Assembly (NCBI RefSeq): GCF_002105555.1 | Contig: NZ_CP020612.1 | Coordinates: 1,170,001-1,234,000, forward strand | DNA from: Paracoccus contaminans | GTDB taxonomy: Bacteria > Pseudomonadota > Alphaproteobacteria > Rhodobacterales > Rhodobacteraceae | Direction: 5' to 3' | Length of the DNA: 64,000 nt | Shown: piece by piece, positions 2,660 to 61,309 of the stretch | Position numbering within the stretch: the stretch's first letter is position 1 | How the letters are laid out: each line of letters starts with the position of its first letter | The notes under the pieces: model-generated | The model's database searches: none | Seen by the model: the letters and a program-made list of their open reading frames with translations, nothing else | Told to the model about the DNA's origin: nothing | Program-made: the position numbers and the translations under genes

Positions 2660-3525
2660 TCGGCCGCCAGCTGCGAGGGATCGGCGGCCATCCGGGCCAG
2701 CCTTCGGGCCACGCGGGCCAGCCGCGCCGCAAAGGCATCATAGCCGTGATGAGGACATATCCGCGCCTCGTCCATATAGAGGCTGCGGTCGATTTCGATC
2801 TGGACGACATGGCGGCCGCAGGACGGCCGCCCATGGACCGCGGCGGTATGGGCGCCGGCAAAGGGCGTGTTGCGGCGCACGGCAAAGCCTTCGGCAGCCA
2901 GCGCCTGATGAACCGCGGCCGTGACGCCGGGTGCAGCCGACCGGCCGTTGCGGTCGCCCAGAACGATGTCGGGCGGCGGGCCGGCCACATGGGACAGGGC
3001 GGCATGCGGCATCGAATGGACATCGATGAGGATCGCCTGGCCAAATCGGGTCGCTGCCTCATCCATCAGGATAGACAGCGCAGCATGATAGGGCTGCCAA
3101 TAGGCTTCGATGCGCCGCCGCGCCTCAGGGGCGGTCAGCTTGCCTTGCCGAATCGGACGGCCATGGGCAACGACGCGGGGGATGACGCCCAGGCCCGCCA
3201 TGGCGCGCGGCGCGACACGCGCAGGCGCGATGCCGCTGATCGCTGCCGGGTCCAGTTCGTCCGCACCCCGGTTCAGGTCCACGATGGTGCGCGGCACCCG
3301 CGCCAGCAGGACAGCTGCCCCCGCATCGGCAGCCGGCGCGATCAGGCGGTCCACGAAGGCATCCTCGGACGATCGTAGCGCCAGGGGATCAAGGATGGAT
3401 TCGGCCAGGAACCAGCCCGGATAGTCGCGGCCGGAATGGGGCGACGCCATGATGACACCGCACGCCCAGTCGGGCGGCCGCACCAGATCGAAGGTGCCCT
3501 GTGGAAAATCCGGGCCAGCGGTCAT
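2656..3525 (-). CDS. N-formylglutamate amidohydrolase family protein
   Basis: A 289-residue member of the N-formylglutamate amidohydrolase family, which cleaves N-formylglutamate to formate and glutamate at the end of one histidine-degradation route. Visible hallmarks are ASPHSGRDYP near residue 27, the acidic LRSSEDAFVD segment, VDLNRG and a DVHSMP metal-site motif. I chose the ATG at 3525 (MTAGPDFPQG) because AAGGGGA lies just upstream; an in-frame extension to 3645 is basic and low in complexity. There are no hut genes nearby, so the physiological substrate may differ from the family name. Confidence 0.85.
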   Translation of the reverse strand: MTAGPDFPQGTFDLVRPPDWACGVIMASPHSGRDYPGWFLAESILDPLALRSSEDAFVDRLIAPAADAGAAVLLARVPRTIVDLNRGADELDPAAISGIAPARVAPRAMAGLGVIPRVVAHGRPIRQGKLTAPEARRRIEAYWQPYHAALSILMDEAATRFGQAILIDVHSMPHAALSHVAGPPPDIVLGDRNGRSAAPGVTAAVHQALAAEGFAVRRNTPFAGAHTAAVHGRPSCGRHVVQIEIDRSLYMDEARICPHHGYDAFAARLARVARRLARMAADPSQLAAE

Positions 3526-32612: not shown

Positions 32613-32730
32613 CGAACGCACCGGGAAACCTTCCCGCCGCCGCGATAAGCACCGCGCCATGACCCTTCTCTCTGGCCCGCTGCGGCGGACCCTGCATACC
32701 CCCGCTGGCCGCCAAGCTTCGCCCCCCCCA

Positions 32731-33891
32731 ATGTCGGGGCGCATCGTGTGCATTTCCGATCATTGCGATACCGTGCCGCCCCATCCGGTGCATGCACCGG
32801 GCGCATCATGGGGCAGCGATGCGCTGGAAGGGCCGGTCCCCCGGGCCGATGTGCGCGTCACCGGCGGGTATCTGGAACGCCTGCCCCTGGCAGCCGTTGC
32901 CGCCGGGCTGACCCCGCGCGCCGAGATCTGGAGCTGGACGGGCACGGACGGGCGGGCGGACAGTGAAACCGGGCGGCCGCAAGGCACCCCGGACCCGGGG
33001 CGCCCCGGCCTGACGCGGCGGCTGTTCCGGGCGGATGGGCATCCCGCGCCCTATGGCTCGGCCGATGCGCTGGCGCATCTGGCGCGGACCGGCGCGCCCG
33101 ACATCCTGTGCGTCTGGGGCATCGGTGTCGATTGCGCGCTGCTGGATGCCTGCGCGGGCTCGGTGCGCATCTATAATTCCATCGACGCCCCGGCGCTGCG
33201 CATCCCCGATGACGAGGCGGCGCGCTTTGACCTGTTCCTGACCGGCGCCGAATGGCAATCGGACGAGATCCGCGCCCGCGTGCCGGGCGCCCGGACGCTG
33301 GTCCTGCCGATCGGGCCGGAATTCGCCTCGGGCGACACGTTCTTTCCCACCGGCCAGCCCAAGGACCGGGACGTGGTCTATGTGGCCTGCACCCAGCCCT
33401 ACAAGCGCCACAAGGTGCTGCTGGATGCGCTGGAACGGCTGCCGGGCACCACGGCGCTGCTGGTGGTCGGCTACGGGCATCTGACGGAAGCCATCCGCGA
33501 GGATGCCGCGCGGCGCGGCCTTGATGTCGAGATCGTCGGCCCGCTCAGCCATGACGAGGTCAATGTCCAGATCAACCGCGCCCGCGTGGGCGTCGTCTGC
33601 GGGCGCGATGACGGCGCGCCGGCGATCCTGACCGAATACATGCTGGCCGGCCTGCCGGTGCTGGCTAATGCCGGGCTGGTCTGCGGACGGCAATACATCA
33701 CGCCCCAGACCGGGCTGGCCGCCGACGAGGGGGAAGGCTTTGCCGCGGCGCTGCGCCAGCTGCTGGACGGGGCCGGGCAGTATGACACCCGCAGGGCCGC
33801 GCTTGATCGCTGGGGCTGGCCTGCCTCCATCGCGCGACTTGGCGCGGAAATCGATGACATCCGCCGCGCGCAGGACGAAAAGGACGCCTGA
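32731..33891 (+). CDS. Glycosyltransferase, GT4-like, first gene of the fusion operon
   Basis: A 386-residue GT-B-type glycosyltransferase. The N-terminal half is poorly conserved. The C-terminal Rossmann half shows VVYVACTQPYKRHKVLLDAL, VEIVGPLSHDEVN and APAILTEYMLAGLPVLAN, the usual donor-site pattern of family 4 enzymes. The start is uncertain: ATG at 32731 (MSGRIVCISDH) begins where a first beta strand is expected, while ATG at 32659 would add 24 low-complexity residues; neither has a good ribosome site. Its stop overlaps the next ATG (TGATG), so it leads a tightly coupled operon. Confidence 0.78.
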   Translation: MSGRIVCISDHCDTVPPHPVHAPGASWGSDALEGPVPRADVRVTGGYLERLPLAAVAAGLTPRAEIWSWTGTDGRADSETGRPQGTPDPGRPGLTRRLFRADGHPAPYGSADALAHLARTGAPDILCVWGIGVDCALLDACAGSVRIYNSIDAPALRIPDDEAARFDLFLTGAEWQSDEIRARVPGARTLVLPIGPEFASGDTFFPTGQPKDRDVVYVACTQPYKRHKVLLDALERLPGTTALLVVGYGHLTEAIREDAARRGLDVEIVGPLSHDEVNVQINRARVGVVCGRDDGAPAILTEYMLAGLPVLANAGLVCGRQYITPQTGLAADEGEGFAAALRQLLDGAGQYDTRRAALDRWGWPASIARLGAEIDDIRRAQDEKDA

Positions 33892-36281
33892 TGAACGACG
33901 CCACCCCACTTGAGGAAACGCCGGCCGTGGACATCGCCTGTCCGGTCCTGGCCGAGGGCCGTGCCGCAACGGCCCCGCTGATCTGCTTTTCACATCTGCG
34001 CTGGGACTTTGTCCTGCAGCGTCCCCAGCACCTGATCGGCCGCTTTGCCGCCCAGGGCCGGCGCGTGCTGTTCTGGGAAGAGGCGATTCCCACCACCCAT
34101 CACCTGCCCTATCTGGAATTCCACGCCTTCGAGGGCACCTCGGTCCAGTCGGTGCGGCCCCGGGTTCCCGATCGCTGGTCGCCCGAGGACCAGGAGCGCG
34201 CGCTGCCGGGGCTGCTGGACCAGATGCTCGGCCTCACGGGGATCGAGCGTCCGGTGCTGTGGTTCTATACCCCGATGATGTGGCCGATCGCGCGGCATGT
34301 TGATGCGGCCGCCGTGGTCTATGACTGTATGGACGAGCTGTCGGCCTTCCGCTTTGCTCCGCCCGACCTTGTCTCGCGCGAGGCGCAGCTGATCGAGGCG
34401 GCCGATGTCGTCTTCACCGGCGGCTGGTCGATCTGGGAGGCCAAGCGCGACCGGCATGACAACATCCATGCCCTTCCGTCCAGCGTCGATGCGCCCCATT
34501 TCGCACAGGCGCGGGGCGGCCTGCCCGAGCCGGCCGATCAGGCCGGGATTGCGCGCCCGCGGCTGGGCTATTACGGCGTCATCGACGAACGGCTGGACCT
34601 GGGCCTGATCCGCGACATGGCCGCGGCGCGGCCCGATTGGCATATCGTCATGGTCGGCCCGGTCGCCAAGCTGTCGCCCGGCGATCTGCCGCAGGCAGCG
34701 AACATCCACTGGCTGGGCCAGAAATCCTATGGCGAACTGCCTGCCTATCTGGCCGGCTGGGATGTCGCCCTGATGCCCTTTGCCATCAACGAGGCGACGC
34801 GCTTCATCAGCCCGACCAAGACACCCGAATACCTGGCCGGGGGGCGGCAGGTGGTGTCCACCCCGGTGCGCGATGTGGTGCGCCATTACGGCGCCACCTC
34901 TGCCGTGCGCATCGCGGGCGATGCCGGGGGGTTCATCGCCGCCTGCGAGGCCGCGCTGGCTGCCAACGGGGCTGATGCGGAATGGCGCGGCGAGGCTGAC
35001 CGGATGCTGGCCACGCAAAGCTGGGACACCACCTTCCACCACATGAGCCGCCTGGTGAACGAGGCGGCCCGCAGCCGGGCCGCCGGCCCCGCGCCCTCGG
35101 ACCGCTTTCCGGCGCCGGGCATCCGCCGGGGCGCGCGCAAATATGACGTGACCGTCTGCGGCGCGGGTTTCGCCGGCGCGGTGCTGGCCGAACGCCTGGC
35201 CGAGGCTTCGGGCAAGCGGGTGCTGGTCGTGGACCGGCGCGATCATGTCGCGGGCAACGCCTATGACCATCTGGACGAGGCGGGCATCCTCGTCCACCGC
35301 TATGGCCCGCACATCTTTCACACCAACAGCGACGAGGTGGTGCGCTATCTGTCCCGCTTCACCGCCTGGCGGCCCTATGAACACCGGGTGCTGGCGCAGG
35401 TGGGGGACCGGCGGGTGCCCATGCCCATCAACCGCACGACGCTGAATGCGCTGTACGGCCTCGACATGTCGACCGATGCGGAAGCGGCGGCGTTCCTGGC
35501 CCGCCTGGCCGAGCCGGTCGCCGAGATCCGAACCGCGCGGGATGTGGTGGTGAATGCGGTCGGAACGCGGCTGTATGAGACGTTCTTCCAGGGCTATACG
35601 CGCAAGCAATGGGGGCTGGACCCCAGCCAGCTGGACAAGTCGGTGACGGCGCGGGTGCCCACCCGCACCTCGGACGACGACCGCTATTTCACCGACAGCT
35701 TCCAGGCGATGCCGCGCGAGGGTTTCACCCGCATGTTCGAGCGGATGCTGGACCATCCGAACATCGATCTGGCGCTGGGTGTGGATTTCCACGAATTGCC
35801 GGCGCAGGATCGCGGCGCGCTGACTGTCTATACCGGCCCGATCGACGCCTATTTCGGCCACCGCTTCGGCCCGCTGCCCTATCGCAGCCTTCAGTTCCGG
35901 CACGAAACCGTGGACAGGCGACGCTTTCAGGAGGTCGCTGTCGTCAACTATCCGGCCGAGGACGTGGCCTGGACGCGGATCACCGAATACAAGCATCTCA
36001 CCGGGCAGGTGCATCCGCGCACGTCGATCACCTATGAAATCCCGTCGGATGAGGGCGAGCCCTACTATCCCATCCCGCGGCCCGAAAACCAGGCGCTGTT
36101 CAAGCGCTATGAGGCGCTGGCCGACGCCGAGCCGGACGTGATCTTCGCCGGCCGGCTGGGCAGCTATCGTTACTACAACATGGACCAGGTGGTCGGTCAG
36201 GCGCTGTCGGTCCACCGCCGGATGGCCGAACGGATGGCGGCCGGCGGGTCCGCAGGAACGATGGCCGCCCAGGATTGCTGA
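33891..36281 (+). CDS. Glycosyltransferase fused to UDP-galactopyranose mutase
   Basis: A 796-residue two-domain protein. Residues 1-400 are a GT-B glycosyltransferase (ICFSHLRWDFVLQRPQHL near 31, YGVIDERLDLGLI, NIHWLGQKSYGELP, PTKTPEYLAGGRQVVSTP). Residues from about 417 on are a full UDP-galactopyranose mutase: FAD site VTVCGAGFAGAVLAERLAE, VVDRRDHVAGNAYD, HRYGPHIFHTNSDEV, the substrate region FFQGYTRKQWG and a C-terminal GRLGSYRYYNMDQV. The mutase makes UDP-galactofuranose; the attached transferase may use it. The domains normally occur as separate proteins. The ATG overlaps the previous stop. Confidence 0.9.
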   Translation: MNDATPLEETPAVDIACPVLAEGRAATAPLICFSHLRWDFVLQRPQHLIGRFAAQGRRVLFWEEAIPTTHHLPYLEFHAFEGTSVQSVRPRVPDRWSPEDQERALPGLLDQMLGLTGIERPVLWFYTPMMWPIARHVDAAAVVYDCMDELSAFRFAPPDLVSREAQLIEAADVVFTGGWSIWEAKRDRHDNIHALPSSVDAPHFAQARGGLPEPADQAGIARPRLGYYGVIDERLDLGLIRDMAAARPDWHIVMVGPVAKLSPGDLPQAANIHWLGQKSYGELPAYLAGWDVALMPFAINEATRFISPTKTPEYLAGGRQVVSTPVRDVVRHYGATSAVRIAGDAGGFIAACEAALAANGADAEWRGEADRMLATQSWDTTFHHMSRLVNEAARSRAAGPAPSDRFPAPGIRRGARKYDVTVCGAGFAGAVLAERLAEASGKRVLVVDRRDHVAGNAYDHLDEAGILVHRYGPHIFHTNSDEVVRYLSRFTAWRPYEHRVLAQVGDRRVPMPINRTTLNALYGLDMSTDAEAAAFLARLAEPVAEIRTARDVVVNAVGTRLYETFFQGYTRKQWGLDPSQLDKSVTARVPTRTSDDDRYFTDSFQAMPREGFTRMFERMLDHPNIDLALGVDFHELPAQDRGALTVYTGPIDAYFGHRFGPLPYRSLQFRHETVDRRRFQEVAVVNYPAEDVAWTRITEYKHLTGQVHPRTSITYEIPSDEGEPYYPIPRPENQALFKRYEALADAEPDVIFAGRLGSYRYYNMDQVVGQALSVHRRMAERMAAGGSAGTMAAQDC

Positions 36282-38368
36282 CCCCTGACGCAAAGGTGGT
36301 TCTGGCCACGGACAGCCCCGACCCCTCCGGGGTCGGCCGGCACATGCTTGCCCTGGCCGCGGCTTTGGCGGCCCTGTATCCGGGCCTGCGCCTGCGGGTG
36401 CTGTTCCCCTGGCACCCCCCCGGCCTGGCGCTGGCGGCCGAGGCGCGGGCGCAGGGGCTGGTCGCCGGGGTCGTCCACGCAGGCAACTGGGAACGCGCCC
36501 TGCGCGGGGCGGCGCTGGTTCACGTCCATGCCGGCATCGGGTGGGAAGGGCACGGGATCGTCCGCGCCGCCCGCCGGGCCGGTGCGGCCGTGGTGCGGAC
36601 CGAACACCTGCCATGGCTGATCACCGACGCGCATCAGCGCGCCGACTATGCCCATATGGTCCAGCAGGTCGATGCCGTGATCGCGGTGGGCCGGGGGGCA
36701 GCGCCCGGCTGGCGGCAGACCCTTGCCGGCATGGCGGGGCCGCGCCTGCCGCTGGCCTGCATTCCGAACGGAATCCCCGATCCGGGCACGCGGCATGACC
36801 CCGCGGGCGGGCAGACGATCCTGTGCGTTGCACGCTTCACGCCGCAGAAGGGGCACCGGACGCTGCTGTCCGCCTTTGCGCGGCTGCGCCGGACCCATCC
36901 GCAGGCGCGGCTGCAGCTTGCCGGCGACGGGCAGCTTGCCCCGCAGCTGAGGGCGCGGGCCGCGCGACTGGGGATCGCCGGCGCCGTCGATTTCCTGGGC
37001 ACGCGCAGCGACGTGCCCGCGCTGATGGCCGCGGCCGACCTGCTGGTGCTGCCTTCGTCCTTCGAGGGGCTGCCGCTGGTCGTGCTTGAGGCGATGGCGG
37101 TGGGCACGCCAGTCGTGGCCACCCGCATCGGCGGCGTGATCGAGGCGCTTGGTCCCGATCACCCATGGCTGGTGCCCCCGGGCGATCCCTCTGCCCTGGC
37201 CGGGGCGCTGGCCAGGGCGCTGGATGACGTGCAGGGCCGCAAGGGGGCTGCAACCGCCGCGCGCGCGCGCTATGAGGCGTTCTACACGGCGACACGCATG
37301 GGCGAAGACACCGCCCGTATCTATGCCGCGGTCATGCGCGGCCAGAAAGGGACTGAACGAATGACAACTCGGCTTGGCTTTATCGGCGCGGGGGGCATCG
37401 CCCACCGGCACTTCGGCGTGCTGGAACAGATGCCCGATGTGCAGATCGTCGCGGTCGCCGACCCCGACGAAGGCCGCGCCCGCGAGGCGGCCGAGCGTTT
37501 CGGCGCGCAGTCCTTTGCCGGCCATGAGGCGATGCTGGAAGCGGTCGAGGTCGATGCCGTCTATATCTGCGTGCCGCCCTTTGCCCATGGCGATGCGGAA
37601 CGGGCCTGCATCGCGCGCGGGCTGCCGTTCTTTGTCGAAAAGCCGCTGTCGCTGGACCTGTCGCTGGCCGAGGAGATCGCGGCCGAGGTGGAACGCGCCG
37701 GGCTGATCACCGCCGTCGGCTATCACTGGCGCTATCTCGACACGGTGGACGAAGCGCGCGCCATCCTGAAGGACAACCCGGCGCAGCTGATGACCGGCTT
37801 CTGGCTGGACCAGACGCCGCCGCCGCAATGGTGGTGGCGCGAGGATGCCTCGGGCGGGCAGGTGGTCGAGCAGGCCACCCACATCATCGACCTGGCGCGG
37901 TTCCTGTCGGGCGACGTGGCCGAGGTGTTCGGCCTGTCCACCCTGCGCGAGCGTCCCGATTTCCAGGGGCTGACGGTGCCCACCGCGACGACGGCCACGC
38001 TGCGCTTTGCCTCGGGGACCATCGCCAACCTGGCGGCGACCTGCCTTCTGCGCTGGAACCACCGGGTCGGCCTGCATGTCTTTGCCGATGCGCTGGCGAT
38101 GGAGATCACCGACCACGACATCATGATCGACGTGGGCCAGGGGCGGCCCGTGCGCCATGCCGAGGGCGATCCCGTCTGGCGCGAGGACCGCGATTTCATC
38201 GACGCCGTGCAGGGCCGCGAAAACCGCATCCGCTGCCCCTATGCCGAGGCGCTGGAAACCCACCGTGTCGCGCTGGCCGTGTCGAAATCGGCCACCTCGG
38301 GCGAACTCGTGAAGATGGAGGTGCTGCGGTTGAACCCGCAGCCCTTTTTTCGCCAAGCCTCTGCGTAA
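36275..38368 (+). CDS. GT4 glycosyltransferase fused to a Gfo/Idh/MocA oxidoreductase
   Basis: One open frame of 697 residues. Residues 1-355 are a GT4 enzyme: DPSGVGRHMLALAAAL, ILCVARFTPQKGHRTLL, VDFLGTRSDVPALM and SSFEGLPLVVLEAMAVGTPV, split by one residue. Residues 363-697 are a Gfo/Idh/MocA NAD(P)-dependent oxidoreductase: RLGFIGAGGIAHRHFG, FFVEKPLSLD with its catalytic-type lysine, and GYHWRYLDTVDEA. The start is weak: TTG at 36275 overlaps the mutase stop, and an in-frame GTG at 36296 is possible. An internal ATG at 37361 with AAAGGGA upstream could allow separate translation of the oxidoreductase. Confidence 0.82.
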   Translation: MLTPDAKVVLATDSPDPSGVGRHMLALAAALAALYPGLRLRVLFPWHPPGLALAAEARAQGLVAGVVHAGNWERALRGAALVHVHAGIGWEGHGIVRAARRAGAAVVRTEHLPWLITDAHQRADYAHMVQQVDAVIAVGRGAAPGWRQTLAGMAGPRLPLACIPNGIPDPGTRHDPAGGQTILCVARFTPQKGHRTLLSAFARLRRTHPQARLQLAGDGQLAPQLRARAARLGIAGAVDFLGTRSDVPALMAAADLLVLPSSFEGLPLVVLEAMAVGTPVVATRIGGVIEALGPDHPWLVPPGDPSALAGALARALDDVQGRKGAATAARARYEAFYTATRMGEDTARIYAAVMRGQKGTERMTTRLGFIGAGGIAHRHFGVLEQMPDVQIVAVADPDEGRAREAAERFGAQSFAGHEAMLEAVEVDAVYICVPPFAHGDAERACIARGLPFFVEKPLSLDLSLAEEIAAEVERAGLITAVGYHWRYLDTVDEARAILKDNPAQLMTGFWLDQTPPPQWWWREDASGGQVVEQATHIIDLARFLSGDVAEVFGLSTLRERPDFQGLTVPTATTATLRFASGTIANLAATCLLRWNHRVGLHVFADALAMEITDHDIMIDVGQGRPVRHAEGDPVWREDRDFIDAVQGRENRIRCPYAEALETHRVALAVSKSATSGELVKMEVLRLNPQPFFRQASA

Positions 38369-38492
38369 GATCCCGACGCTGCCCCATCAGCACCGGCACA
38401 TCCGCAGCCTCGGGATCGAACGCGAGAACGAGCCCTACTTCTTCGGCTATGACGAAGGTCCGGCAGGCGACGGGCAGGTCCGGCTGGACCTG

Positions 38493-39479
38493 ATGTATAC
38501 CGGCCTTTCGGCCGGGACCGAGCTGACCTTCATGAAGGGATCGAACCCCTATCTGCACAGCCGCTGGGACGACTGGCAGGGCGTCTTTGTTCCGGGCGAG
38601 CCGTCGGCGCGCTTTCCGGTCAATTTCCTCGGCTATATGGAAGTCGCCCGCGTCATCGACAGCCGCGCCCGCGGCTTTGCCTATGGCGACATCGTGGCGA
38701 CGACCTTCGGCCACAAGACAGGCCATACCGCGAACCCGGGCCATGACCTGCTGCTGACAATGCCGGCCGGGATCGACCCGATGCTGGGCATCTTCGTCGC
38801 CCAGATGGGTCCGATCGCGGCGAACGGCATCCTGCATGCCGATGCCGAACAGTTCGGCGCCGCCGTGCCCGCCCTGGGCGCGGGGGTCGAAGGCCGGCCC
38901 GTGCTGGTCTGGGGCGGCGGCACCGTCGGGCTGTTCTGCGCGCTGTTCGCGCGCCAGGGCGGCGCGTCCGAGATCGTGGTCGTGGACCCCTCGCCCTGGC
39001 GGCAGGATCTGGCGCGGCGCATGGGTTTCGAGGCGATGGGCGAGGACGAGGCCTGGCGCCATGCGAAAGCCCGCTGGCACCACAAGGCCGGCGGACGCGG
39101 GGCCGAGATCGTGTTCCAGACCCGCGCCCATTCGGGCAGCCTGAACCTGTGCCTGCGGGCGCTGCGCCCGCAGGGGACGGTGATCGACCTGGCCTTCTAT
39201 CAAGGGGGCATGGACGGCCTGCGCCTGGGCGAGGAGTTCCACCACAACGGCCTGTCGATCCGCTGCGCGCAGATCAACCGGATGCCCCGCCCGGTGGCGG
39301 CGGCATGGGACCAGCGCCGGCTGGCGCAGGAAACGCTGCGCCTGCTGGCGGCCGAGGGTGATCTGATCCGCCGCGAGATGATCACCCATGTCGTGCCCTA
39401 TGACGAGGCGCCGGCCTTCCTGCGCCATCTGGTCCGGGACCGGCCCGAATTCCTGCAGGTCGTATTCCAGCATGACTGA
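38493..39479 (+). CDS. Zinc-binding-dehydrogenase-like protein; true N-terminus lies upstream
   Basis: At least 328 residues of a medium-chain (ADH-like) dehydrogenase: TGLSAGTELTFMKGSNPYL, GHKTGHTANPGH, VLVWGGGTVGLFCALFA (nucleotide fold) and GTVIDLAFYQGG. The four-cysteine structural zinc site is missing. Coordinates start at the first conventional ATG, but homologous sequence (HIRSLGIERENEPYFFGYDEG) continues upstream in the same frame to about 38379 without any ATG, GTG or TTG, so the real start is a rare codon such as CTG or the sequence has an error. It overlaps the next ATG (ATGACTGA). Its neighbours suggest redox tailoring of a sugar. Confidence 0.75.
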   Translation: MYTGLSAGTELTFMKGSNPYLHSRWDDWQGVFVPGEPSARFPVNFLGYMEVARVIDSRARGFAYGDIVATTFGHKTGHTANPGHDLLLTMPAGIDPMLGIFVAQMGPIAANGILHADAEQFGAAVPALGAGVEGRPVLVWGGGTVGLFCALFARQGGASEIVVVDPSPWRQDLARRMGFEAMGEDEAWRHAKARWHHKAGGRGAEIVFQTRAHSGSLNLCLRALRPQGTVIDLAFYQGGMDGLRLGEEFHHNGLSIRCAQINRMPRPVAAAWDQRRLAQETLRLLAAEGDLIRREMITHVVPYDEAPAFLRHLVRDRPEFLQVVFQHD

Positions 39480-41837
39480 GCACCAGCACCTGAACGAAGC
39501 CGACGCCGCCGCCGTCACCGCCCCGCCCCAGGGCGGGACAGTGCCGCTGCGCGAGCCGACCGAGCGTGAGCGCGAGGAAATGCGCGCCCTTGCCGCGCTG
39601 CATTCGGGCCGCATCCCCGAGCCGCATCCCGACGCCGGCAAAATCCGCATCCTGTGGGTCTTTGCCTGGCTGGTCGTGGGCGGCGAGGAAACCGAGGTCC
39701 GCCTGCTAGCGCAGAAGCTGGATCGCAGCCGCTATCGCATCGACGTGATTCCCTGTTTCCGCAAGCCCGGAATGCCCGACCAGAGCCACGAACAGCTGCG
39801 CGCGCTGGGAATCCACGTGGACACCACGGCCTATGGGCTGAGCTTCGGGGACACGATCGACTATCTGCGCCGCAAGCTGAACGGCGCGGATATCGTCATT
39901 TCGTCGCAGGACGTGGCGGATATCTATCCGGCGCTCGACCGGCTGGGCGTGCGCCCGCCGCTGATCGAACATGGCGGGCTGGTCCGCGAGGCCCTGTCCG
40001 GTCCCAAGCACCACACTGCGCGCTATGTCGGCGTGTGCGATTCGATCCGCGCGGCCGCGGCCGGACGGATGCCCGACCGGCCGCACCATGCCCTTGAAAT
40101 CCCGTCCATGGTCGATCTGGCCGAGTTCGATCCTGCGGCGCGCGATCGCACGCGCGCGGCGCTGGGAATCGCGCCGGATCAGTGCCTGATCGGCTGGGTC
40201 GGCCGCCTGGACCGCAAGAAGCGGGTCGAGGATTTCATCGCCGCCGCCATGATCGTCGCGGGCGATGATCCGCAGGCGCGGTTCATCGTCGTGGGCGGCC
40301 CCGATGCCTTCATGCCCGAATATGCCGACGAGCTGCGCCATCTGGCCGCCCCGCTGGGCGAACGGATCATCTTTACCGGCGATCGCAAGGACGTGCCCGA
40401 CCTGCTGATGGGGATGGACATGCTGTGCTGGCTGTCGCGCGGCGAGGGAATGCCCCATGTCATCGCGGAAGCAGGCGCGGCAGGGCTGCCGGTGATCGCC
40501 ACGCCCGACAATGGCGCCTGCCAGCAGATCAGGGATGGCGAGACGGGCCTGTTCGTTCCGCACGAGGATCCCCCCGCCGTGGCGGCGGCGATCCGGCGCC
40601 TGCTTGCCGACCAGGGCCAGCGCCAGCGCCTGGGCCGCAGGCTGCGCACCCATGTCGAGGCGAGCTATTCGGCCGAAGCGGTCGTGCCGCAGTGGGAACG
40701 CCTGTTCGCCGAGGTGCTGGCCGAGCGCCGGCCGGCACCGCCACCCTCGACCTTTTCGAGTTTCGTGCTGGGGGGGTGGGAAAGCTCGACCCATCGGCGC
40801 CATGACGGGCGGCGGCTGGACGTGCTGGCGGCGACCGGGCACGACCGCCATGCCGCATCCGATTACCGGCAGCTTCAGCAGCACGGCATCCATGCCTGCC
40901 GCGACGGTATCCGCTGGCACCTGATCGAGCCGTCGCCGGGGCAATATGACTTTTCCAGCCTGACCCCGATGGTCGAGGCGGCCCGTGATACGGGCACGCA
41001 GATCGTGTGGGATCTGCTGCATTATGGCTGGCCGGACGATCTGGACATCTGGTCGCCGGCCTTCGTGAACCGCTTCGCCGCCATGGCCCGCGCCGCCGGC
41101 AACCATATCCGCAACCTCACCGACACGGTGCCGTTCTGGTGCCCTGTGAACGAGATCAGCTTCTTTTCCTGGGCCGGGGGGACGCGCGCTATCTGAACCC
41201 CTTTGCCGCCGGACGCGGCTACGAGCTGAAGGTCCAGCTTGCCCGCGCCTATCTGGCCGCCGCGGCCGAGCTGCGCGCGCTGGATCGCCGGGCACGGTTC
41301 CTGATGGCCGAGCCGCTGATCGCCATTCACCATGTCGGATGGAGCGGCCGGCCCCTGTGGGAGGCGCATGGCTGGCACGACGCCCAGTTCCAGGCCTTCG
41401 ATCTCGTGTCGGGCCGGCTCTGGCCCCAGATCGGGGGGGGCGAGGAATGGCTCGACCTTGTCGGGGTGAACTACTACTTCAACAACCAGTGGATCCATGG
41501 CGGGCAGCCCGTTGACGTGGACGACGTGATCTATCGTCCCTTGTCGGACCTGCTGGTCGAGGTCGCCGCCCGCTATGATCGCCCGCTGATGGTGGCCGAA
41601 ACCGGCACCGAGGGCATCAGGCGCGGGGCGTGGTTCGACTATGTCGCGGCCGAGACAGCGCGGGCGCGCCAGAGGGGCGCCCCTGTAGAGGGGATCTGCC
41701 TTTACCCCATCGCCGAGCATCCAGGCTGGGACGATGACCGGATGTGCCCCAATGGCCTGCTTGGCCCCCATGTCGAACAGGGCGGGCGGTCGGTGGACGA
41801 ATGGCTGGCAAAGGCCATCGCCGGCCGCGTGGGCTGA
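39472..41837 (+). CDS. GT4 glycosyltransferase fused to a GH1-like domain (frameshifted as sequenced)
   Basis: Residues 1-440 are a GT4 enzyme (VFAWLVVGGEETEVRLL, IGWVGRLDRKKRVEDFI, SRGEGMPHVIAEAGAAGLPV). From about 450 to the end lies a family-1-glycosidase-like domain: a PVNEISFFSWAGG acid/base-type segment and a MVAETGTEG nucleophile-type segment. The frame breaks at the G6 run 41176-41181. One extra G would give SWAGG-DARYLNPFAAGRG and an uninterrupted product of about 788 residues. It is probably a homopolymer error. The GH-like domain may act as a transglycosidase or be non-catalytic. Last gene of the operon, converging on nagA. Confidence 0.78.
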
Positions 41838-56965: not shown

Positions 56966-57917
56966 ATGGCTGCGCCGCCAGATCGGTGCGGTTGTCAGCT
57001 ATCTGCGGGAATCCTTCAAGTTCATCCTTTCGCTGGCCGAACGGATGGACAAGATCCACATGAGCCTGATCGCCGCCGGCGTGGCCTTTTACGCCATGTT
57101 CGCGGTCTTTCCCGGTCTGGCCGCCCTGATCACGCTCTGGGGGCTGTGGTTCGACCCGGCGATCATCCAGCAATATGACCGCTATGTTGACGATTTTCTT
57201 CCCGAAGGCGCCGCCCAGATCCTGCATTCGCAGATCGATGCGCTGACCGCCGGCGGGCGCACCCAGCTTGGCTGGGCATCGGGGATATCCTTCGTCGTTG
57301 CCACCATCGCCGCGCGAGCGGGCGTCGATGCCCTGGTGCGGGGGCTGAACGCCGCCTATGGGGTGCGCTCGCATTCGACCATCTTTGGCTGGGTTCTGGC
57401 CTATGTGCTGACGCTGGTGATCGTGGGCGTGGTGCTGATGGGGCTGGCCATGATCCTGATCGTGCCGCTCGCCTTCAACTTTCTGGAGGTCGGCCCGCTG
57501 CGCAGCTGGCTGATCGGCGCGATCCCGTGGCTGGCGATGTTCGTCATCGTGATCTTCGGAATCGGCATTCTTTACCGCTATGGTCCCAACGTAAAGACGC
57601 CGCGCACCCCGATCTTCACCTGGGGCGCGTTGTTCGCCGCCATGGCCTGGGGCGCGGCTTCGGTGGGATTTTCGACTTATCTGTCCAGCTTCAACAGCTA
57701 TAACCGGATCTATGGCTCGATCGGGGCGGTGGTCGCGCTGCTGATGTGGTTCTATCTTGCCGGGTTCTCGGTGATGCTGGGCGCGCTCATCAACGTGGAA
57801 CTGGACCGCAATCGCCGCCTTGCCGCCGCCCGAAAGGCGCGCAGCCTTGCCGCCCGAATGGCACGCGAACAGGCGGCCAAGGCCGCCTTGGCCGATACGG
57901 GCAGCCTGGATCAGTGA
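56943..57917 (+). CDS. YihY/RbnA-family inner-membrane protein
   Basis: A 324-residue membrane protein of the YihY (formerly called RNase BN) family, with six predicted hydrophobic helices. Typical segments are [20 protein letters not shown] near residue 40, [16 protein letters not shown], and [20 protein letters not shown]. The function of the family is not settled. The C-terminus is Ala/Arg-rich and cytoplasmic. Three in-frame ATGs (56943, 56949, 56952) lie within the end of dnaQ; none has a clear ribosome site. Confidence 0.85.
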
Positions 57918-59677
57918 CGCGCCCCGGCCCGCGCGGCCGAGGTCAGAACCACGCTGCGCTGGGGTTCTTCATGGGTCCGGTCCGCGCCCTGCGGCATGAA
58001 GCGGACCTCCAGCCGATAGACGCTGTCGGTCGTCTCGACATGCGCCTCGGTATCGAGCTGCATGGCGAAAGCCTCGATCAGCTGGCTGCCAAGGCCGGTC
58101 CCCTCGACATGGGACAGCGGCTGGCCCAGCGAATTCTCGATCGTCAGCACGGCCGCCCCGTCCGGCTCGCGCCGCAGCATGACCTTGACCCAGGCCCGCC
58201 CCCCGTTCGCTGTCCCGGTATATTTCAGCGCGTTGGTGAACGCCTCGGTTGTCAGCAGCGTCAGCGGCACCGCCTGATCCGGCAGGAGGGTCAGCGGTTC
58301 CAGATCGGTGGTCATCTCGACCGACATGTCGTTCAGCAGCGAGGCGGTGGACATCTGCCCGATGATGTCGCGGATCAGCCTGTCCGCCTCGACCGAATCC
58401 AGATGCTCGGCCTGGTAGAGGTTCTTGTAGATCGTGGCCAGCGAGGCGACCCGGTCCTGGACCGACCGCAGCACCCGCTTGGCGTCGGTGTCGTCGATCA
58501 CCCGGCTCTGCATGTTGATGATGGAGGCGATCAGCTGAAGGTTGTTCTTGACCCGGTGGTGAACCTCTTTCAACAACACGGTCTTTTCCGACACCGCCTC
58601 CTCCATCGCGGCTTCCTCGCGGATCAGGATGCGGGCCATGTTGTGGAACGTCTCGCTCACGTCGCGGATCTCGCCGGGCGCCGCGGTCAGCACCGGCGGG
58701 GCCACGCTGCGATCCCCCAGCGCAAAGCGGCGCATCTGGCCGCGCAGTTCGCGCACATGGCGCAGCACCAGCCGATAGACCGCGAAATAGGCAACCGCCA
58801 GCGACACCGCCCACAGCGCCAGTGGAAACAGGATCGCGGCAAAGCGCGATATGCTCAGCCCCACGATGCCCGTGACCTGCGGGCTCCAGCTTCCCAGCGC
58901 GAAGACGAGATTGGGCACCACCGGCACCACCGAGAACACCCGATTCTCGCCCGAGTTCGAACGGCCGCTGAACGAGCTGTTCTCGCGCCCCACCAGCGAG
59001 GCGAGCGTCTGCCCCTCGGGCAGGATCGCCGCGGGATCGTCCTGCGGCCCCAGATCTCCCGAAAGCGCCTGTCCTTGCGCGTTGAACATCAGGATATGGG
59101 CGCTTTTGGCCCAGTAGGTCATGGCGTGGGTGGATCGCAGCAGATCCTGCGACAGCGACAGCGCGACATAGCCCAGAAGCGTGCCGTTCTGATAAAGCGG
59201 CTGCGAGACGATCACCACACGCTCGCCTGTCGCCATGCCGCGTTCGGTCGCGGTGATCAGCGTGCCGGGATCCCGCATGAAGGCCTGGTAATGGGGCGAT
59301 GTCCGCACGTCGATCGCATGGCCGGTCGAGGAACAGACATTCATGCCCTCGACGCTGGTGAAGCCGGCGTAAAGATAGATCGCGCTGCGCTGGACATACT
59401 GGCGCATCGCCTCGGAACACTGGGCCGGATCCTTGATCAGCGTCAGGATCGAGGCGCCAAGCGCATCGGCGGTGCCGATGGCGCTCTGCAGCAATGCCCG
59501 TTCGCCCGCCGCGGCCTCGGCCGTGCGGCCCTGAAGGGCGATCTGGGTCGATCGCTCGGCCTCTCGCGACAGGTGCAGTGTCTGGATGATCGAGATCATC
59601 CCGATCGGCAGGATCGCGATCGACAGCAGCGCCCCCAGGCGGAAACCAAGTCTGCCGGTTATCCCCGATAAGCGCAT
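57911..59677 (-). CDS. Membrane sensor histidine kinase, HisKA_2 type (general stress response)
   Basis: A 588-residue sensor kinase. Helices near residues 13-33 and 285-310 enclose a periplasmic sensing domain of about 250 residues. A HAMP-like linker leads to the dimerisation domain with LLKEVHHRVKNNLQLIASII, where the first of the paired histidines is the likely phosphosite, and a HATPase_c domain (TEAFTNALKYT, GTGLGSQLIEAF). HisKA_2/HWE kinases of this kind phosphorylate PhyR in other alphaproteobacteria. The ATG begins directly after the ecfG stop, so the genes are co-transcribed. The signal sensed is unknown. Confidence 0.9.
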   Translation of the reverse strand: MRLSGITGRLGFRLGALLSIAILPIGMISIIQTLHLSREAERSTQIALQGRTAEAAAGERALLQSAIGTADALGASILTLIKDPAQCSEAMRQYVQRSAIYLYAGFTSVEGMNVCSSTGHAIDVRTSPHYQAFMRDPGTLITATERGMATGERVVIVSQPLYQNGTLLGYVALSLSQDLLRSTHAMTYWAKSAHILMFNAQGQALSGDLGPQDDPAAILPEGQTLASLVGRENSSFSGRSNSGENRVFSVVPVVPNLVFALGSWSPQVTGIVGLSISRFAAILFPLALWAVSLAVAYFAVYRLVLRHVRELRGQMRRFALGDRSVAPPVLTAAPGEIRDVSETFHNMARILIREEAAMEEAVSEKTVLLKEVHHRVKNNLQLIASIINMQSRVIDDTDAKRVLRSVQDRVASLATIYKNLYQAEHLDSVEADRLIRDIIGQMSTASLLNDMSVEMTTDLEPLTLLPDQAVPLTLLTTEAFTNALKYTGTANGGRAWVKVMLRREPDGAAVLTIENSLGQPLSHVEGTGLGSQLIEAFAMQLDTEAHVETTDSVYRLEVRFMPQGADRTHEEPQRSVVLTSAARAGARH

Positions 59678-60262
59678 TTAGCGTGAAACCGGGTGGTTGA
59701 CCCCCATGACCGCCAGGGTCGATGCATCAGTCATGTCGAGTTCCTCGCCCTCGGCCATGTGCATCAGCTCGGCCAGTTTGCGCCGGCCGCGGTTGGCGCG
59801 CGACTTGACGGTGCCGACCGCCACCCCGGTCATCGCGGCGGCTTCCTCATAGGAAAACCCCGACCCGCCCACCAGGATCAGGGCCTCGCGCTGTTCGTCG
59901 GGCAATTGCCGGAAAGCCGCCTTGAAATCGTTCATCGCCAGTCGCCCGTCATGTTCGGGGCGGGTGGCCTGACGCGCGGCATGGATGCCATCGCTGTCGC
60001 TGACTTCGCGCCGGGTCTTGCGGCGCGCGGAATAGAAGGTGTTGCGCAGGATCGTGAACAGCCAGGCGCGAAGATTGGTCCCGGGCTGGAACTTGTCCAT
60101 GTTGGTCCAGGCCTTGACGATCGTGTCCTGCACCAGATCATCCGCAGAGGCGCTGTCGCGGGTCAGCGAGAGGGCAAAGGCCCTGAGAGCGGGAAGATGA
60201 TCGACCAGCTCGTCGCGCGGGTCGGAACCGGACAGGCCTTTGGCGGCAAGGTGAACTGTCAT
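59678..60262 (-). CDS. ecfG: General stress response sigma factor EcfG
   Basis: A 194-residue ECF sigma factor of the EcfG group. Region 2 holds ADDLVQDTIVKAWTNMDKF and LRAWLFTILRNTFYS; region 4 holds LPDEQREALILVGGSGFSYE and TGVAVGTVKSRANRGRRKL. In alphaproteobacteria it is held by NepR and freed when PhyR is phosphorylated. The gene follows nepR by 4 bases and precedes the kinase gene; a promoter of its own class lies upstream of nepR, which implies positive autoregulation. Confidence 0.94.
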   Translation of the reverse strand: MTVHLAAKGLSGSDPRDELVDHLPALRAFALSLTRDSASADDLVQDTIVKAWTNMDKFQPGTNLRAWLFTILRNTFYSARRKTRREVSDSDGIHAARQATRPEHDGRLAMNDFKAAFRQLPDEQREALILVGGSGFSYEEAAAMTGVAVGTVKSRANRGRRKLAELMHMAEGEELDMTDASTLAVMGVNHPVSR

Positions 60263-60266
60263 CCGC

Positions 60267-60413
60267 TCAGTCCTGCTCGCGCAGGCGCTCGAGAAGCGTC
60301 AGGAAACGGTCGGGAACCTGTTCCGAGGTGTCCTGTTCATAGACGCGCCGCAGATTTTCGTCGATCTGCTTTTCAAGGGCGGCGCGCTTTCTGTCTTCCC
60401 GCCTCGTGTTCAT
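60267..60413 (-). CDS. nepR: Anti-sigma factor NepR
   Basis: A 48-residue anti-sigma factor: MNTRREDRKRAALEKQ, then IDENLRRVYEQ and VPDRFLTLLERL, the two helices that grip EcfG or PhyR. An upstream extension of the frame crosses the promoter, so the ATG at 60413 is the start. It lies directly upstream of ecfG in the same operon, and phyR is divergent, the standard partner-switch layout. Confidence 0.93.
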   Translation of the reverse strand: MNTRREDRKRAALEKQIDENLRRVYEQDTSEQVPDRFLTLLERLREQD

Positions 60414-60452
60414 TGATTTGTTTATCCCGGAAATCTTGTGTGCACGTGGCAT

Positions 60453-60477
60453 AACGGCTACAGCACCATAAGGTTCC
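60453..60477 (-). promoter_or_regulatory. EcfG-type promoter of nepR-ecfG
   Basis: On the minus strand GGAAC (60477-60473) and CGTT (60456-60453) are separated by exactly 16 bases, the consensus GGAAC-N16/17-CGTT recognised by EcfG. It lies 40 bases upstream of the nepR ATG. This supports autoactivation of the sigma-factor operon. Confidence 0.85.
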
Positions 60478-60505
60478 CGCACAGGGATGAAGTTGAGGAA
60501 AGCCA

Positions 60506-61309
60506 ATGTCCGCTGCTGATCTTGCCCAATCCATCGGCCGCGAGCTGCCCTATCTGCGCCGTTATGCACGCGCCCTGACCGGCAGCCAGACCGCGGGGGA
60601 CAACTATGCCGCGGCCACGCTCGAGGCGATTCTGAGCGATCGCAGCATGATGAACGGGGATGACACGCGCATCGGCCTGTTCCGCACCTTCCATGCCATC
60701 TGGCAAAGTTCGGGCCAGCCCATCGCCGGCGAGGACCAGAGCTCGCGCGAGGCGGCGGCCCAGTCGCATCTGCGCGGCCTGACGGCCAATTCGCGCGAGG
60801 CGCTGTTGCTGCGCACGATCGAGGAACTGCGCTATGACCAGATCGCCCGCGTCATGCAGGTGGATCAGGACGAGGCCGAGGAACTGGTCCAGATCGCGCT
60901 GAATGAAATGGGCCGGTCGATCCGCGGCCGCGTGATGATCATCGAGGACGAGACGATCATCGCCATGGACCTCAAGGGGATCGTGCAGGCCATGGGCCAT
61001 GAGGTGACGGGCATCGCCCGCACCCACACCGCCGCGATCGAACTGGCCGGCGAGCGCCGTCCTGACCTGATCCTGGCCGATATCCAGCTGGCCGACGGAT
61101 CGTCCGGGATCGACGCCGTGAACGAGCTGCTGGGCAGCATGGGCGATCTGCCGGTGATCTTCATCACCGCCTTCCCCGAACGCCTGCTGACGGGCGACCG
61201 GCCCGAGCCGGCCTTCCTCATCTCCAAGCCCTATTCCGAGGAACAGGTCCGCTCGGCGGTGTCGCAGGCGATGTTCTTTGCCTCGACGGACGGCCTGGGC
61301 GTCGCCTGA
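60506..61309 (+). CDS. phyR: Stress response anti-anti-sigma regulator PhyR
   Basis: A 267-residue response regulator. The N-terminal half is a sigma-factor mimic (LRRYARALTGSQTAGDNYAAA, cut; SREALLLRTIEELRYDQIARV). The C-terminal receiver has EDE at 147-149 and phospho-acceptor D192 in LILADIQLADGSSG, then FITAFPE and the conserved lysine in ISKPY. Phosphorylation exposes the mimic domain, which captures NepR and frees EcfG. It is divergent from nepR. Confidence 0.95.
   Translation: MSAADLAQSIGRELPYLRRYARALTGSQTAGDNYAAATLEAILSDRSMMNGDDTRIGLFRTFHAIWQSSGQPIAGEDQSSREAAAQSHLRGLTANSREALLLRTIEELRYDQIARVMQVDQDEAEELVQIALNEMGRSIRGRVMIIEDETIIAMDLKGIVQAMGHEVTGIARTHTAAIELAGERRPDLILADIQLADGSSGIDAVNELLGSMGDLPVIFITAFPERLLTGDRPEPAFLISKPYSEEQVRSAVSQAMFFASTDGLGVA

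Follow-up and report, generated by a model that had tools for sequence, protein, structure and literature searches.

Several described systems resemble parts of a five-gene run in Paracoccus contaminans (RefSeq assembly GCF_002105555.1, contig NZ_CP020612.1, positions 1,170,001–1,234,000), hereafter called the cassette, which lies at positions 32731–41837 on the plus strand of this 64,000-nucleotide stretch (hereafter the window). The second gene holds a full-length UDP-galactopyranose mutase (UGM) that scores above the curated cut-off of TIGR00031 and is related to the solved structure 3hdq; in contrast to known UGMs, it is fused to a glycosyltransferase (GT) inside a multi-enzyme cassette. 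The last gene contains a hydrolase whose relatives share the fold and the catalytic glutamate pair of GH1 β-glucosidases (clan GH-A), but the cassette hydrolase is 364 residues long, is fused behind a GT4 domain, lacks a PF00232 match, and is 14–21% identical to these enzymes among the matches listed. A Gfo/Idh/MocA oxidoreductase (Gfo) and an alcohol dehydrogenase (ADH)-like domain, which presumably correspond to the bi-domain oxidoreductases of polysaccharide clusters, form one polypeptide in 39 of the 72 related loci from named genomes that carry them, but the cassette version is often also fused to GT4 and sits within a cassette with UGM and the hydrolase. According to sections of a report on Sphingomonas melonis Fr1, GT and glycosidase genes (#3505–3509 and #1750–1751) depend on the sigma factor EcfG, as do Ku and catalase genes (PMC6599016); these glycan genes are alike to the cassette by gene class, set side by side by description only, and the word galactopyranose does not occur in the main text of that report. 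In Deinococcus radiodurans, the UGM dr_A0367 was lower in a mutant of a heat-stress small RNA, according to part of that study (PMC7022480). The open literature searched, its results viewed mainly as listings, yielded no description of the cassette itself, and the portion of PMC3188799 consulted contains nothing on these genes; the label "undescribed", which a first-pass annotation of the window, made from the sequence alone, had proposed, fits these searches.

The five genes, each overlapping the next, encode a GT, a GT–UGM fusion, a GT4–Gfo fusion, an ADH-like dehydrogenase, and a GT4–hydrolase fusion, and the run probably builds a sugar structure. Our preferred explanation, held with moderate confidence as a whole, counts the cassette among the general-stress genes of many Alphaproteobacteria; its product would most likely be a short glycolipid or glycoside that contains galactofuranose and is formed under stress. 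The cassette is an accessory unit, conserved and with a patchy distribution. Among 121 genomes of the genus, including the source, 32 had a long match to the GT4–hydrolase; of the 31 others, 24 regions were read and 7 were left out, and three further regions (L014–L016), at first taken as distant matches, contained no cassette. Genes 2, 3, 4, and 5 were all present and kept their order in 24 of 24 regions. We also scanned named genomes, which yielded at least 534 relatives, and retained the 80 best, which are thus the closest; some of these loci are cut by contig ends, so that the domain counts are lower bounds. The hydrolase was found in all 80 loci, the GT4 of gene 5 in 78, the GT of gene 2 in 74, Gfo and ADH in 72 each, the GT4 of gene 3 in 71, and UGM in 61; the set of GT, GT4, Gfo, ADH, and GT4–hydrolase was kept in 68, and all eight domains in 46. 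By title, these loci belong to Rhodobacterales and Hyphomicrobiales (including Paracoccus, Cereibacter, Rhizobium, Agrobacterium, Sinorhizobium, Aureimonas, and Devosia), with one (L099) labeled only as an alphaproteobacterium. Across the class the hydrolase is rare, occurring in 3 of 240 evenly drawn genomes including the source (E 1e-60), and the cassette is plasmid-borne in R. leguminosarum WSM1325 and S. meliloti M162. The first-pass annotation had taken the run as one operon, and we checked relatives for the same genes, fused or split: the kept order and co-occurrence in the 24 genus regions and the 80 named loci rule out a chance assembly of scattered homologues.

The first evidence for a stress link comes from the promoters of related cassettes. 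In 26 of 76 loci, the 320 bp preceding the first cassette gene contain the motif GGAAC-N15-18-GTT (four of the 80, L091, L099, L114, and L145, were dropped for having less than 300 bp upstream), with a spacer of 17 in 16 loci and of 18 in 9; at any other spacer from 5 to 39 the motif occurred in 0–2 loci. The 26 motif-bearing loci form 24 groups of distinct upstream sequence. As a control, 90 letter orders of the motif, the real one included, averaged 1.8 loci, and the next best reached 10. With 510 bp upstream, 33 of 76 loci carried the motif against 4.0 expected from the loci's own background. These scans were anchored on the start of homology; the earlier scan, anchored on the opening of the open reading frame (ORF; −500 to +400 bp), had given 9 of 28 loci, with several matches lying within the ORF. 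In passages of the respective reports, the EcfG motif is GGAAC-N17-20-GTT in S. melonis (PMC6599016) and GGAAC-N16-CGTT in R. etli (PMC3892343), and by its letters and spacing the cassette motif is the published EcfG motif. Outside the 80 loci, in hand-chosen stretches with no matched control, the motif was also found before the modules of L158, L073, L159, and L068, that of L068 being identical to that of L139; it was not found in such stretches before the modules of L067, L069, and L160.

The second line of evidence is the neighborhood of related cassettes. In the flanks of the 80 loci, inspected by eye with clusters named by reading sequences, catalase-like genes appeared at 10 loci, Ku, DUF892, and HWE kinase genes at 8 each, and LigD and extracytoplasmic function (ECF) sigma factor genes at 6 each. 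The flanks of annotated relatives likewise contained Ku, LigD, GroEL, manganese catalase, error-prone polymerase, and ferritin-like genes. DUF892 and Ku were then searched as families in 42 genomes (of 43 chosen from the 80 for long contigs), with positions entered by hand. DUF892 lay within 10 kb of the cassette in 11 of 42 genomes (0.54 expected), and Ku within 10 kb in 5 (0.41 expected) and within 35 kb in 9 (1.42 expected). For a luciferase-family control, no member lay within 15 kb where 2.53 were expected, among the matches listed (about 150 of 457). This stress link of related cassettes is new relative to the first-pass annotation, which had recognized what proved to be a real, conserved cassette but had missed the link and a frameshift in gene 5. 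The cassette is carried by nodule bacteria, Paracoccus, and Agrobacterium, among others, in some of them on plasmids and in some among DNA-repair and oxidative-stress genes. If a stress-protective glycan is indeed made, a part of the general stress regulon so far without an assignment would acquire a product that can be tested.

Gene 1 (32731–33891, +) encodes a GT (Glycos_transf_1; PF00534, 7.5e-13). The first ATG of its ORF is at 32659, and homology to relatives mostly begins at residue 25, which corresponds to 32731, where the first-pass annotation had the run begin; the gene is present in 20 of the 24 genus regions and 61 of the 80 named loci. Gene 2 (33891–36281, +) joins a GT (approximately residues 1–400) to UGM (approximately 415–796), as assigned by Pfam and NCBIfam. 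The UGM half matched PF03275 (1.6e-76) and passed TIGR00031 with 375.9 bits against a cut-off of 303.75. Its closest solved structure was 3hdq (3.2e-146), which we take to be the D. radiodurans UGM and, presumably, the dr_A0367 protein. The best NCBIfam match of the N-terminal GT was TuaH, at 80.4 bits well below the cut-off of 550. A distant relative of this GT also occurs elsewhere in the source genome, inside a 1294-residue open frame (L015, 8996–12877; 110 bits to the profile). Gene 3 (36275–38368, +) joins a GT4 domain (approximately residues 1–352; Pfam, 6.4e-38) to Gfo (approximately 360–697; GFO_IDH_MocA, 1.3e-25), and inositol 2-dehydrogenase and levoglucosan dehydrogenase are among the best named models of the Gfo half.

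Gene 4 (38379–39479, +) encodes a zinc-less ADH-like dehydrogenase. Its sole Pfam match was PF00107 (ADH_zinc_N, 2.8e-13), the nucleotide-binding half of zinc dehydrogenases; there was no match to ADH_N (GroES-like), an alignment of 18 sequences contained no zinc-ligand motif by eye, and the single invariant cysteine of that alignment is at position 301, so that it does not qualify as a zinc-dependent ADH. The nearest solved relatives are threonine and idonate dehydrogenases. The start of gene 4, placed by comparison with relatives, is likely a CTG at 38379: no ATG, GTG, or TTG lies between the frame opening and 38493, and a start at 38493 would lose about 38 residues common to relatives. When the gene 3/gene 4 junctions of 33 unfused loci were compared, a CTG without a nearby ATG was also seen in L077, L079, and L080, and in L078 the sole candidate was a GTG lying 27 bases upstream; L076 and L088 had TTG, L093 had GTG, and most others had ATG there or nine bases upstream. 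Since genes 3 and 4 are fused in Rhizobium and the same +1 relation occurs in 29 of the 33 unfused loci, we considered a +1 ribosomal frameshift joining the two genes; this was rejected because most of these 29 junctions carry ATG, GTG, or TTG, which makes ordinary overlapping starts the simpler explanation.

Gene 5 is split between two frames in the window, contrary to the first-pass annotation, whose account of five overlapping rightward genes otherwise agreed with the layout and with the Pfam and NCBIfam domains. The first frame (39472–41196, +) encodes GT4 (3.1e-30) and the beginning of the GH1-like hydrolase, including the catalytic Asn–Glu; the ATG opening its ORF is at 39388, and the likely start, read from the sequence, is 39472, overlapping the gene 4 stop. 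The second frame (41184–41837, +, start approximate), detected by tblastn and profile search, encodes the remaining hydrolase, including the position of the catalytic nucleophile Glu. The break lies beside a G run at approximately 41177–41182. A relative's hydrolase aligned to the window by tblastn with residues 1–143 in one frame and 125–357 in another, and a profile search of the source genome also matched the hydrolase as two pieces; the two catalytic Glu positions therefore fall in different frames. The GT4–hydrolase is a single ORF in 24 of 24 genus regions and in all 78 named loci with both domains, and because the relatives read keep one open frame, the window gene has a mutation or a sequencing error.

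The hydrolase was called GH1-like in the first-pass annotation, a label that stands on fold and catalytic residues but not on family models. PF00232 (GH1) was unmatched in the window (E 0.001) and in the intact relatives L048 and L067 (E 0.01). The first half of the window hydrolase matched GH42 (PF02449) with 23.9 bits (cut-off 21) over only 54 aligned residues, and L048 and L067 did not match this model (E 0.01). A search of PDB sequences with the hydrolase returned one match only, which was unrelated. We rest the label on a structure model of the intact hydrolase domain of P. sanguinis (mean pLDDT 92.5): GH1 β-glucosidases lead its best 50 PDB matches, with 4bce at E 1.9e-17, TM 0.76, and 20% identity. 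Asn133–Glu134 and Glu283 were invariant in 40 of 40 sequences, and by their positions we take them to be the acid/base and nucleophile of clan GH-A. As modeled, the TIM barrel and the two catalytic Glu residues identify the hydrolase of the relatives as a retaining glycosidase of clan GH-A.

The three fusions described for the window are real, but the fusion arrangement changes among relatives while the parts persist. GT and UGM were fused in 24 of 24 genus regions and in 52 of the 59 named loci with both; GT4–Gfo was a single ORF in 20 of 24 genus regions, was split into two in the other 4, and was fused in 60 of 71 named loci; and, as described above, GT4 and the hydrolase were never apart. 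Unusual fusions were a single GT1–GT–UGM protein in L118 and Gfo–ADH without GT4 in L151. UGM was missing from the stretch in 19 of the 80 loci, and in the 16 of those genomes searched it was found elsewhere in all 16, a count without cassette-free genomes for comparison. If the cassette makes a stress-protective glycan, its proteins, with a transferase and a sugar-modifying enzyme joined in varying combinations, would be a model for coupling modification to transfer.

From these parts we propose the following scheme. UGM would make UDP-galactofuranose, and the GT fused to it would transfer galactofuranose; the other three GT domains (genes 1, 3, and 5) would add further sugars in the cytoplasm. 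Gfo and the zinc-less ADH, often one polypeptide, may oxidize and then re-reduce a sugar or cyclitol unit, and the GH1-like hydrolase, a retaining enzyme joined to the last GT, may trim the product or move a sugar between acceptors. Substrate channeling through the fusions, an oxidized sugar in the product, and a surface location, all suggested in the first-pass annotation, are conjectural. No clear membrane span was found in the cassette proteins, whose top 19-residue hydropathy was 1.72 (an ABC exporter reached 2.86). The 10 flanking ORFs scanned between 25.8 and 46.0 kb, which are some of the ORFs in that interval, included no polymerase, flippase, or initiating transferase, in agreement with the earlier remark that polymerase and flippase genes were missing; the near flanks scanned contained a cell wall hydrolase, ADH, esterase, PQQ protein, amidohydrolase, GrpE, and HrcA. 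Inspection by eye of the 30 neighbor clusters that recur most often at the 80 loci revealed none of the three either. Given the lack of a clear membrane span and of a polymerase or flippase nearby, our best guess for the product is a short glycoside or glycolipid of cytoplasmic origin.

A number of observations weigh against a stress-induced glycolipid or glycoside. Two thirds of the loci lack the motif (it is present in 11 of 30 Rhodobacterales and 15 of 46 Hyphomicrobiales loci, grouped by locus number), and the reverse strand of the same upstream stretches gave 11 matches. The DUF892 and Ku test is not independent: both families were picked after recurring in the flanks of these loci, which are themselves related. 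Together with the hand-entered positions, this makes its P values too small. The window copy shows no sign of the stress link: within approximately 430 bp upstream of it there is no motif, even with one mismatch allowed at spacer 17, and the three DUF892 genes and the single Ku gene of the source genome all lie more than 680 kb from the cassette. An exact EcfG-type motif does occur inside gene 1 (32874); since there are 5 exact matches in the 64 kb, a single one proves little. Genes 1 and 3 each have one hydropathy window near the usual threshold (1.72 and 1.62). Finally, Gfo and ADH are absent in L098, L100, L102–L105, and L122, which indicates that they are not always needed; both are also absent in L145, a contig of 3.2 kb.

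For the window copy alone, it is possible, if rather unlikely, that the cassette is a remnant in decay, in which the hydrolase is frameshifted, the stress promoter is missing, and gene 4 has a non-standard start. Gene 5 is unbroken in all the relatives read (24 and 78), the window has no EcfG motif upstream, and gene 4 begins with CTG where most relatives have ATG, TTG, or GTG, all of which such decay would explain. However, the other frames are open and 50–91% identical to genus relatives, the same CTG without a nearby ATG recurs in L077, L079, and L080, and sequencing errors commonly produce frameshifts next to G runs.

We consider it unlikely that the cassette is an ordinary capsule, O-antigen, or exopolysaccharide cluster of the Wzx/Wzy or ABC type, unrelated to stress and with its polymerase and export genes elsewhere in the genome. 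Such clusters typically combine several GTs with UGM, many other genomes of the genus have a UGM that is not part of these fusions, and the absence of the EcfG motif from most related loci suits this explanation as well. However, neither the 10 window flank ORFs nor the 30 neighbor clusters revealed a polymerase, flippase, or initiating transferase, the gene order is stable over two orders, and EcfG promoters precede part of the loci. Least probable, and in our view very improbable, is a catabolic or salvage unit in which the hydrolase, Gfo, and ADH-like enzymes dismantle a glycoside with the GT domains as accessories: the inositol 2-dehydrogenase and levoglucosan dehydrogenase models of Gfo and the threonine and idonate dehydrogenase relatives of gene 4 fit it, but the four GT domains and UGM serve biosynthesis, the hydrolase is a domain within a longer protein in which it follows a GT, and no uptake system was noticed as a constant neighbor, the commonest flank cluster being a generic ABC ATPase at 15 of the 80 loci in varying places.

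The reading of a stress-linked galactofuranose product may extend to a smaller core. Hydrolase, GT, and UGM genes are adjacent in Azospirillum brasilense (L158), Mesorhizobium (L159), Comamonas (L160, with a hydrolase–GT fusion), and Chryseobacterium (L072); A. thermophilum (L073) has UGM and hydrolase without a GT match, and in Deinococcus proteolyticus (L071) GT and UGM lie together with the hydrolase elsewhere on the same plasmid. It is conceivable, though doubtful, that this core, whose genes are neighbors in Alpha- and Betaproteobacteria and Bacteroidota and scattered in Deinococcota, produces a protective glycolipid with galactofuranose that the hydrolase remodels as a transglycosylase, and that the five-gene form adds an oxidized or epimerized unit via GT4–Gfo–ADH. 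SFR2, a GH1-family enzyme that remodels plant galactolipids in the cold, follows a comparable logic. In the two Azospirillum species the gene immediately after that of the hydrolase encodes an MsbA-like ABC exporter (L158, 10128–11894; L073, 14496–16304); the exporters match MsbA-type models with scores under the cut-offs, and their presence fits a lipid-linked or small exported product.

Other arrangements of the hydrolase were also observed. In D. radiodurans (L157, 8905–11265), the domain is fused to an acyl-CoA-dehydrogenase-like protein and adjoins a PIG-L deacetylase. In Pantoea (L074, 8774–12616), a hydrolase–GT is fused to, or followed by, an amine-oxidase-like flavoprotein, and because the UGM profile does not match this flavoprotein, another flavoenzyme may take the place of UGM there. 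Sphingobium (L070, 7556–9949) has a GH1–RmlD fusion divergent from a GT–UGM fusion, a second hydrolase type joined to a sugar-nucleotide enzyme.

The window also contains a general stress locus outside the cassette, 16–19 kb downstream of it (57911–60569, −), with genes for an HWE/HisKA_2 kinase, an EcfG-like sigma factor, and NepR. The EcfG-like ECF sigma factor (59678–60262, −; Sigma70_r2, Sigma70_r4_2, and PhyR_sigma2), a candidate for the class of regulator concerned, adjoins the gene for the NepR anti-sigma factor (60267–60569, −; PF18557), and an exact GGAAC-N17-GTT lies on the same strand as the latter at 60477–60453.

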